From: Methanomicrobiales archaeon
Lineage (GTDB): Archaea > Halobacteriota > Methanomicrobia > Methanomicrobiales > Methanospirillaceae
DNA: 64,000 bases
Reading direction: 5' to 3'
Assembly: GCA_012729535.1 (NCBI GenBank)
Contig: JAAYCY010000033.1
Location: 1 to 64,000 of the forward strand
In this document: positions 41,977 to 45,388 of the stretch, piece after piece
Layout of the letters: each line of letters begins with the position of its first letter
Numbering within the stretch: the stretch's first letter is position 1
Made by a program: the position numbers and the translations under genes
The notes under the pieces: model-generated
What the model was told of the DNA's origin: nothing
The model's database searches: none
What the model saw: the letters and a program-made list of their open reading frames with translations, nothing else

Positions 41977-42852
41977 TTAGTTTTCTACGACGTTTACCAG
42001 GTGTTCCATTACATTATCCACAGCTTTCCACGTATCAGAATCTTTCTGCCGGATAATGAATGGTCTTCCCTCATCTCCCGCTTTTCTGACTTCAGGATCA
42101 AGGGGCAAACTACCCAGAAATGGAACATTATGCTCCTTTGCAATCCGTTCTCCTCCACCCTTTCCGAAAAGATCCACTGTTTCGCCACAATGCGGACAGA
42201 TAAATCCACTCATATTTTCAATTACACCAATCACTTTCATCCCTAGTTGTTCAATAAAAGTAATTGCTTTTGTTGAATCAAGTGTTGAGACTTCCTGTGG
42301 TGTCGTTACAACTACTGCTCCACGAAGATTTGGTGCCATTTGTGCGATAGTAAGCGCTTCATCCCCTGTGCCAGGAGGAAGGTCTACAACAAGATAGTCC
42401 AGGGAACCCCAGGCAGTGTCTTCAAGAAACTGTTTTATTGCTCCTGACTTCATCGCCCCACGCCAGATTACCGGAGCATGTTTTTCTGGGAGGAGAAATG
42501 CCATTGAGACAACCTGCAATGTTCCGGTCACCTTTACCGGGACAATTTTATTCTGATCTGCAAGAAGTTTGTGATCTTCTATACCGAGCATTTTGGGAAT
42601 ATTTGGTCCGTGAATATCCAGGTCGAGGAGACCTACATTTTTACCATGATTGGAAAGTGCATATGCCAGATTCACTGCTACGGTAGATTTTCCAACTCCT
42701 CCCTTCCCTGAGAGAACAAGTATTACATGCTTAACATCGATATTTGCCTTTGGCGGGAGTTTGCCTCCTGCGGATGGGCAGGTTGCCCCGGAAGGACAGG
42801 ATGAACAATTATTATCACACGTTTCAGGATCTGGTTTATTACTTTCTGTCAT
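41977..42852 (-). CDS. Mrp/NBP35-type iron-sulfur cluster carrier ATPase
   Basis: A P-loop ATPase of 291 residues that assembles and passes on [4Fe-4S] clusters. An N-terminal cysteine cluster (CDNNCSSCPSGATC, residues about 9-25) is like eukaryotic Nbp35. The deviant Walker A is SGKGGVGKST near 48, Walker B is LDLDIHGPNIPKML near 74, and GFICPHCGE near 214 is the bridging cluster motif. In methanogens it serves the many iron-sulfur enzymes. It heads the operon that runs through the ACT-MBL and hxlB genes to the M42 peptidase. Confidence 0.93.
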   Translation of the reverse strand: MTESNKPDPETCDNNCSSCPSGATCPSAGGKLPPKANIDVKHVILVLSGKGGVGKSTVAVNLAYALSNHGKNVGLLDLDIHGPNIPKMLGIEDHKLLADQNKIVPVKVTGTLQVVSMAFLLPEKHAPVIWRGAMKSGAIKQFLEDTAWGSLDYLVVDLPPGTGDEALTIAQMAPNLRGAVVVTTPQEVSTLDSTKAITFIEQLGMKVIGVIENMSGFICPHCGETVDLFGKGGGERIAKEHNVPFLGSLPLDPEVRKAGDEGRPFIIRQKDSDTWKAVDNVMEHLVNVVEN

Positions 42853-43011: not shown

Positions 43012-43659
43012 ATGGAAAAGAGGGATTTCGTTGTTATTTTCGCAGCAATAATTATCGTTTTAATTATGGCGGTGGTCGTAAAGCCGATCATTACCGGACA
43101 GCCTGTGGTTTTTTTACCTGAATCACCTGCGCCGATAGAAGAAGTCATTTCTGAAAGTAATACTGGAACTATTCTTTCAACCCCGGTTGATACAGAGATA
43201 ATAATAACCCCTGAACCTACACTCGTTCAGGAAACCCAGGAACCAACAATACCCTCACAGAGCACGGTGAGTGTAACTCCATCAATTACACCAATGACCT
43301 GGCAACCAGATTCAGACAACCCTATGCCAGCTATACAGATGACTAATTATGCTGAAATTGTTGGAAAATATACCGGTTCAACTGTACCATTCAGAATACC
43401 TACACCATATTGGGAACTTCATTACCATGTAACTCCAATGGGTACAGATGGAACATTTTCAATGGACGTGAAGGAAAAATCTGATGCAGGAGAGAAAACA
43501 GTTAGAACTATTACCTGGCGTGATGGGAATGCTCCTGACCCACGTGAATACAGATTTTTTGAAGGGGGAAAAGATTACTATTTGATTATTAATGCAAATC
43601 AATTAAAAGAATACAGAATAAATATCCAGATACCTTTAAAGTACATCCGCGATACATAA
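43012..43659 (+). CDS. membrane-anchored secreted domain protein (paralogue 1)
   Basis: From ATG 43012 the product is 215 residues. GAGGGG lies six to seven bases ahead, and the upstream open frame is discarded. The N-terminus MEKRDFVVIFAAIIIVLIMAVVV is an uncleaved anchor followed by KP-I-I-TG. A Thr/Pro/Glu linker leads to an extracellular domain with FRIPTPYWELHYHV near 145 and EYRINIQIPLKYI at the end. The next gene is a larger paralogue with the same opening and closing motifs. The function is unknown; export by an N-terminal signal anchor is clear. Confidence 0.75.
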   Translation: MEKRDFVVIFAAIIIVLIMAVVVKPIITGQPVVFLPESPAPIEEVISESNTGTILSTPVDTEIIITPEPTLVQETQEPTIPSQSTVSVTPSITPMTWQPDSDNPMPAIQMTNYAEIVGKYTGSTVPFRIPTPYWELHYHVTPMGTDGTFSMDVKEKSDAGEKTVRTITWRDGNAPDPREYRFFEGGKDYYLIINANQLKEYRINIQIPLKYIRDT

Positions 43660-43666
43660 GTGCAAT

Positions 43667-44995
43667 ATGGAAAAACGGGATATCATTGTCATAGTTGTTG
43701 CGATATTTATCGTACTCATTATGGCAATGTACATAAAACCTCTGGTTACCGGGAAAGAGGCTAAACTTATCCCGGATGAAATATCAAATCTTTTTAAAAA
43801 AGACAATCTCTCCAACATTAGCGACGATGATAAAGATCATCTAGTGAAAAGTGAGGAACACATTTATTCTAAACCTGCAATAATATCAATATCGCCTAAC
43901 GACACGAAACCTAATTCAACATCTATAATAGAAATAGAGGGGAAAAATTTTAAAGAATCAATGGAAATAATGGTTTTCTCTGATTCTCATAATCAAACCT
44001 TCAATACAACTTTTGAAAAAAATAAATTAATCGGAAAAAATGTTGTTTTATCTGAAGGAGACTGGATTGTAAAAATATATGATCCTGAATTGAATATTAC
44101 TTATAATACACAGCATGTGATTCATGCGATTCCTACTCATGAATCCACGGACATTAATTCAAATCTAATAAAAGAAGAATCTTTATCTCCTATTCCTACC
44201 CCACTTCGTACTTCCATATATACTATTCCGATAAAAGAAACAAATGAGACTAAATTAATTATTTTTAAGGAAATTGAAGGTTCTAATTCAAAAGTAATAG
44301 GGCCAGTATATATTCCTACCGGATATTGGGATCTTAGATATACTATAAATTTTCAAACAAATCTTGCGACTCCAAAAACTGATAATATATTTGAATTTAA
44401 TAAGCAATATAAAGAAGCATTGATATCTTATGAAGTAGGCCCAAATAACAAAAATATTACAGTTATATATGATAAAGACGGTCGGGCTATTGGTATGGAG
44501 TCCGACAGAAGTGAGAATAAAAGCGATATTGAATTCATCAGAAGTTCTGATAAAATTATTATTAAAAAGCCTAAAGAGGGTGATTGGGAAGCTGGATTAG
44601 ATGAATTACCTTTTGATATCACCGAAGGAACAGCATCAGGCAGTTTGGTTGAATCAGTCTCTTATGGAGTTCCAGACATTACAATTACTGTAAAAGACTT
44701 AGATTACAAAAAAAGAGACATAACTATAAAGCCAGATGGTGGAATTGATCCCTTGCAATGGAATTAACAATTACATAGAAAGAAAGCAGAAGAAGATTTA
44801 AAACAAAAAGGTAAAAGCGATTTAATTTCATCTACTTTATATACAACAGAATGGGAAAAAAAATGGAAAGAAATTAAAGATCCTCGCCCTTGGACAGAAA
44901 GAATTTTTGGGCCTGGAAATTACTCAATTTACATTAATCCAAACAATATCGAATCATATAAAATTGATATTCTTGTTCCGGTAAAAAAAGAATAA
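43667..44995 (+). pseudogene. membrane-anchored secreted protein (paralogue 2) interrupted by in-frame TAA
   Basis: The first frame, 43667-44767, encodes 366 residues starting MEKRDIIVIVVAIFIVLIM and then KPLVTG, like its upstream neighbour. An IPT/TIG-like beta domain follows near residues 65-150, then VYIPTGYWDLRYTI. TAA at 44765-44767 ends it. The same frame then stays open for 75 codons to TAA at 44993-44995. That extension ends in a part (YSIYINPNNIESYKIDILVP) matching the C-terminus of paralogue 1. The gene therefore appears broken by a nonsense change, or the base is a sequencing error. TAA is not the pyrrolysine codon. Confidence 0.75.
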
Positions 44996-45004
44996 TGTAT
45001 AAGA

Positions 45005-45388
45005 TTATAGGAAATCGATCTTTCTTTTTTCCATGGAATAGATATACATCGTTTCCTTTCCCGCCTCTATTCTACCAATAACATCATCACTAACCGTAAC
45101 CTCAAAATTTTCAAAACTTTCAAGATCCATCATCTGAACAACATTTCCGGCAATCGATATTACCTGTGCATTTCTCCTTTCAACGATGGGTGCGTATACT
45201 TTAGCGGACACCGGTTGCACCACAGAACGTTTTACCCCGTCAAATATCCCCATAACATCGAGACGGGCTTTTGCTGCTCCATGTTTCCCAGGTTTGGATA
45301 TAGAAATGGAGAGGATCTTACACGGTTCATCTTCGATTATAACATATTTGCCTTCTTTCAGTTTGCCTACTTCAGTCTGTTCTTTCAT
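45005..45388 (-). CDS. translation initiation factor aIF5A
   Basis: The archaeal homologue of eIF5A/EF-P, which relieves ribosome stalling. The 127-residue chain has the hypusination loop SKPGKHGAAKARLD near residue 31, with the modified lysine in GKHG. The C-terminal OB-fold part is VVQMMDLESFENFEV. AAGGTG just ahead of the ATG supports the start, and a TATA-like GTATTTATG lies near 45431-45442 on the minus strand. It is alone, back to back with the phosphatase gene. Confidence 0.96.
   Translation of the reverse strand: MKEQTEVGKLKEGKYVIIEDEPCKILSISISKPGKHGAAKARLDVMGIFDGVKRSVVQPVSAKVYAPIVERRNAQVISIAGNVVQMMDLESFENFEVTVSDDVIGRIEAGKETMYIYSMEKRKIDFL

Follow-up and report, generated by a model that had tools for sequence, protein, structure and literature searches.

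In plant viruses, a stop codon in a CARYYA context is prone to readthrough. The same context promotes readthrough in some metazoan genes (PMC4132726), whereas a review of archaeal recoding counts selenocysteine and pyrrolysine as the only demonstrated cases of readthrough in archaea (PMC8211752). In-frame stops have also been described in prokaryotic genes, where their position is often common to orthologues and dN/dS is below 1 (PMC7918605). Here, we analyzed a stretch of 64,000 nucleotides (the window) in which the gene for a large membrane-anchored protein is interrupted by an in-frame TAA. The locus belongs to a Methanospirillum species and is located on C19, one of the 86 contigs of a draft genome of 3.09 Mb. 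The interrupted gene looks like a case of ordinary erosion of a gene end and reveals no new decoding. A search of the literature on the large anchored protein in Methanospirillum found nothing; the S-layer protein of M. hungatei (Mhun_2263, with DUF3821 and PGF-CTERM; PMC11641113) is a different protein.

Gene neighborhood and orthologues

The gene order at the locus, from left to right, is an Mrp-type ATPase gene (−), a small paralogue (+), the large gene (+), the aIF5A gene (−), and an inositol monophosphatase family gene (+). Four of these features are as follows.

41977..42852, − strand: Mrp/Nbp35-type iron-transfer P-loop ATPase, the conserved left neighbor (Pfam PF10609, E = 3e-103; equivalent position in orthologous loci)
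43012..43656, + strand: small paralogue, intact, 215 aa, with an N-terminal anchor as in the large gene and one sandwich domain (co-located orthologues in Methanospirillum relatives, 54–72% identity)
43667..44767, + strand: interrupted gene, 366 codons up to the premature TAA (open reading frame; orthologues have 572–578 aa)
45005..45388, − strand: aIF5A, the convergent and conserved right neighbor (Pfam PF21485, E = 4e-17; co-located in relatives at 78–94% identity)

The comparisons cover one genome of the window species, and the relatives are other Methanospirillum genomes. All named relatives at the matching locus belong to this genus, and the arrangement around the large gene is identical in them as far as their contigs extend. 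Like its counterparts, the interrupted gene is located between the small paralogue and the aIF5A gene, downstream of the divergent Mrp gene, and its anchor, TIG-like domain, and sandwich sequence show 43–52% identity to the orthologues. On the basis of this synteny, the gene was identified as the orthologue of the large anchored protein of Methanospirillum.

The large gene is intact, with 572–578 aa, in five Methanospirillum genomes (G001, G004, G006, G008, and G011; sequences L003 to L007), and a sixth close orthologue (G002) is intact but split over two contigs. Shorter or divergent intact forms are present in G003 and G010, and G009 contributed the 3′ part. No internal stop was found in any Methanospirillum orthologue of the large gene examined. 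The proteins of G003 and G010 (L010 and L011) are 419 and 436 aa long and are devoid of the TIG-like domain; therefore, domains have been gained or lost repeatedly at this locus. G009 and G003 have nearly identical small paralogues (L016 versus L010), yet the 3′ part of the large gene in G009 (L101:1-810) is very different, possibly because the large gene has been replaced between closely related genomes or because the contig comes from another strain.

The premature TAA and the open tail

The open reading frame at 43667–44767 encodes 366 aa and is closed by the TAA at 44765–44767. As the initial annotation had reported, 75 further codons stay open in the same frame, up to a second TAA at 44993–44995.

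44765..44767, + strand: premature TAA (the alignment column is Glu in 6 of 6 close orthologues)
44768..44992, + strand: open in-frame tail of 75 codons, covering the helical insertion and, by homology, the last three sandwich strands, with the KDPRPW motif retained (open reading frame, orthologue alignment, and the L003 model)

The tail (44768–44992) contains no in-frame ATG, GTG, TTG, or CTG, which agrees with the earlier view that it has no start of its own. When the tail sequence was modeled as an order-1 Markov chain, 75 codons stayed open in 0.5% of trials, and among the same-frame extensions without a start codon that follow the 58 larger open reading frames of the window, the tail is the longest (75 codons; the runner-up has 42). 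The reported resemblance of its end to the C-terminus of the upstream paralogue (43468–43641) was reproduced at 39% identity (E = 5e-4), and orthologues from other species matched the tail much better, with 50–54% identity and E values down to 4e-23.

The TAA column is occupied by a glutamate codon in all six close orthologues, just after a common GGIDPLQW(N/D), and the alignment continues without gaps through the conserved KDPRPW to the VP with which the sandwich domain ends. The glutamate column and the gapless tail identify the TAA as a nonsense mutation, one of the original proposals, that interrupts a formerly continuous frame encoding a membrane-anchored protein. Its position is a sense codon in the intact orthologues, as in a nonsense-truncated gene or pseudogene. 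TAA terminates 37 of the 57 other large open reading frames of the window, and it is therefore an ordinary stop in this DNA. TAG-linked pyrrolysine, as had already been pointed out, has no bearing on a TAA.

Domain architecture and the missing C-terminal domain

The intact orthologue L003 was modeled with AlphaFold2 from 14 sequences. Since the mean pLDDT was 65 and the pTM 0.34, only local features of the model were used. These consist of a membrane helix at residues 3–28, the TIG-like domain at about 66–153, sandwich strands at 198–348, a helical insertion at 356–395, strands at 403–432 completing the sandwich, and an alpha/beta domain at the C-terminus that starts at residue 444. The corresponding parts of the interrupted gene, with its 3′ end, are listed below.

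43673..43750, + strand: N-terminal membrane helix, residues 3–28, motif MEKRD...KPLVTG (AlphaFold2 helix 3–28 in L003; conservation throughout the family)
43865..44131, + strand: TIG-like Ig domain, residues 67–155, evolving at a normal rate in the window lineage (sub-threshold Pfam TIG; L003 strands 69–153, pLDDT about 85–90; rate test)
44303..44764, + strand: first part of the central beta-sandwich, residues 213–366, about 4× accelerated in the window lineage (L003 model; rate test)
44981..44995, + strand: last four codons (VKKE) and stop, without a counterpart in the orthologues; likely the deletion junction for the C-terminal domain (orthologue alignment; comparison of the downstream sequence)

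The match to Pfam TIG (PF01833) scored 18.1 bits, below the curated cut-off of 20.9, and the modeled domain compared with the TIG domain of EBF1 at a TM of 0.78 by target, which suggests a fold similar to TIG. A fold search with the whole L003 model (pTM 0.34) returned generic Ig-like matches only, plus a match of about 115 columns to PBP2a. The matching region might possibly be an NTF2-like domain, and this match was not relied on. The TAA maps to residue 361 of L003; therefore, a 366-aa product would keep the anchor and the TIG-like domain and would be short of the last three sandwich strands.

The gene carries a second, larger lesion that had escaped the initial annotation. Beyond the VP, the orthologues run for about 130 more residues, whereas the window has four unrelated codons and then the stop. 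In each complete orthologue, these residues make up a domain of their own, which was present in all nine other copies of the genus that could be read to the 3′ end. In the window species, a search for it across the genome gave no significant match (best E = 0.12). The stops of the interrupted gene and of the convergent aIF5A gene are spaced 9 bases apart, and the sequence 3′ of the second stop resembles the intergenic stretch that precedes aIF5A in the relatives. The initial annotation had taken a frame of 441 codons for the intact gene, and the length of the orthologues, 572–578 codons, corrects this estimate. Because locus and sequence are orthologous while this domain, which otherwise marks the orthologous group, is absent, the gene was classified as a damaged orthologue rather than an intact member.

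Evolutionary rates

The tail shares 49–54% identity with the orthologues, near the 43–52% of the gene body, a similarity that had given the break its recent appearance. Among orthologues of comparable depth, tail identity is 65–75%, and the tail has therefore evolved about five times faster in the window lineage. On a tree of the upstream part of the gene itself, a fit to the tail required a 5- to 6-fold longer window branch (2dlnL 34.5 with six sequences and 31.7 with seven). No other lineage showed tail acceleration, and the next-largest signal elsewhere was a slowing in L006.

A second reference tree was built from the neighboring Mrp and small paralogue genes, with weak support at two internal branches. 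On this tree, the anchor (0.75–1×) and the TIG-like domain (0.5×) of the window lineage evolved at or below expectation. In the same lineage, the first part of the sandwich reached 4× (2dlnL 50) and the tail 12×, the highest value on the grid tested (2dlnL 67); the linker reached 8× on an uncertain alignment. The sandwich of G002 was also at 2× (2dlnL 24), so there is some rate noise in this domain. Among positions invariant in the six orthologues, 11 of 49 in the sandwich and 7 of 35 in the tail differ in the window, compared with 0–5 and 0–4, respectively, in leave-one-out controls. Together, the regional acceleration and the changes at invariant sites suggest a loss or change of constraint that affected the sandwich and the tail and spared the N-terminal part.

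Origin of the interruption

We consider it likely that the gene is a damaged orthologue of a membrane-anchored extracytoplasmic protein of Methanospirillum that is eroding from its 3′ end by an ordinary process. The ancestral protein would have comprised an N-terminal helix, a TIG-like domain, a central beta-sandwich, and a C-terminal alpha/beta domain. The last of these would have been deleted as far as the convergent aIF5A gene, the central sandwich may have come under relaxed constraint, and a nonsense substitution would have put TAA in place of the conserved glutamate. The nonsense change probably came late, after the onset of relaxation; in the simplest order, translation of the tail would have continued through much of the branch while constraint on it was weakened, with the stop arising afterwards. 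Constraint at the 3′ end was probably weakening already, so the TAA did not strike a healthy gene as a single new lesion. We infer that translation ends at the TAA and that the 366-aa product has no function left beyond, at best, that of the TIG-like domain on its anchor; the present gene would be a truncated gene that still works or a pseudogene at an early stage.

One set of features counts against erosion. The tail keeps its frame and a KDPRPW...GNYS motif with no second stop or indel, and it therefore fits a sequence translated until recently or even still. When the extra divergence of the tail was simulated under neutrality, the frame stayed free of stops in only about 13% of cases (P about 0.13), with indels uncounted, and this simulation alone leaves drift after the stop compatible with the data. 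The retained frame and motif, with a codon-position bias in the tail (GC of 37/32/16% at the three positions), would also suit a nonsense mutation of very recent date, or a strain polymorphism, in a gene whose 441-aa product, its lost C-terminal domain aside, was in full working order. Such a history is unlikely, because the tail and the central sandwich are already 4–12× faster than expected, which places the loss or change of constraint earlier. For the same reason, and because the C-terminal domain is missing, the original argument from the kept frame to a simply recent break finds no support. An assembly error had been proposed as well, and the draft state of the genome leaves room for such an error, or one of base calling, at a single base. 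However, synteny is unbroken at both flanks, and an error would leave the lost domain (an independent lesion) and the regional acceleration, which indicate true decay, unexplained; we regard it as very unlikely.

Readthrough of the TAA into a minor 441-aa product would be in keeping with the open tail and with the sequence at 44765–44773, TAA CAA TTA, which matches the CARYYA context. Against this, CARYYA is expected here about once per 409 bases and a single match is therefore weak; it followed none of the 57 other stops examined. The archaeal cases reviewed to date are of a different kind, the tail is the fastest-evolving part of the gene (5–12× accelerated, yet with frame and motif kept), and the stop, whose position would be expected to be conserved among relatives under programmed readthrough, occurs at the TAA column in none of the orthologues. 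A UUA anticodon was absent among the typed tRNAs in an incomplete set of 42 tRNA genes, one of them untyped (Rfam tRNA search and ARAGORN), and a loose DNA-pattern search for a suppressor tRNA gave no excess over a reversed control. A minor readthrough product is thus highly improbable, and the narrower proposal that low-level readthrough, aided by CAA UUA, yields short and long membrane-anchored forms is even more doubtful; if true, it would mean that an archaeon reads through an ordinary stop with neither Sec nor Pyl involved. The tRNA set also includes a gene of 92 bases (L090, G000:C31:25285-25374) whose anticodon was unreadable by ARAGORN and which is perhaps an intron-bearing tRNA. Phase or antigenic variation, another suggestion of the initial annotation, would suit a predicted extracytoplasmic protein with an adjoining paralogue. 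Nevertheless, no repeat tract or inverted repeat was noticed at the TAA on reading the sequence, the change is a codon substitution and not one of homopolymer length, and the genome holds just one other, distant copy of the gene's family (35% in the shared part), which means no donor cassettes. This explanation has almost no probability left.

If erosion from the 3′ end is the correct reading, the gene has been caught shedding its 3′ domains, with the N-terminal anchored part constrained, the central part drifting, the last domain gone, and a stop gained. Such a natural truncation could be useful for asking what the TIG-like part does alone in an uncharacterized Methanospirillum protein.

Comparison with known systems

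The closest counterparts are the Methanospirillum orthologues, which share with the window copy the locus, the neighbors, the N-terminal anchor, the sandwich, and the DPRPW motif; the TIG-like domain is shared with the six close orthologues. They differ in having no stop and in keeping the C-terminal domain. The small paralogue (43012–43656) and similar short family members such as L018, L020, and L021 resemble the window copy in the anchor motif, a single sandwich, and a similar C-terminus, whereas they are intact and have neither the TIG-like nor the C-terminal domain. The in-frame stops described in prokaryotic genes (PMC7918605) likewise lie within a frame that stays open; unlike them, the TAA of the window was found in one genome only.
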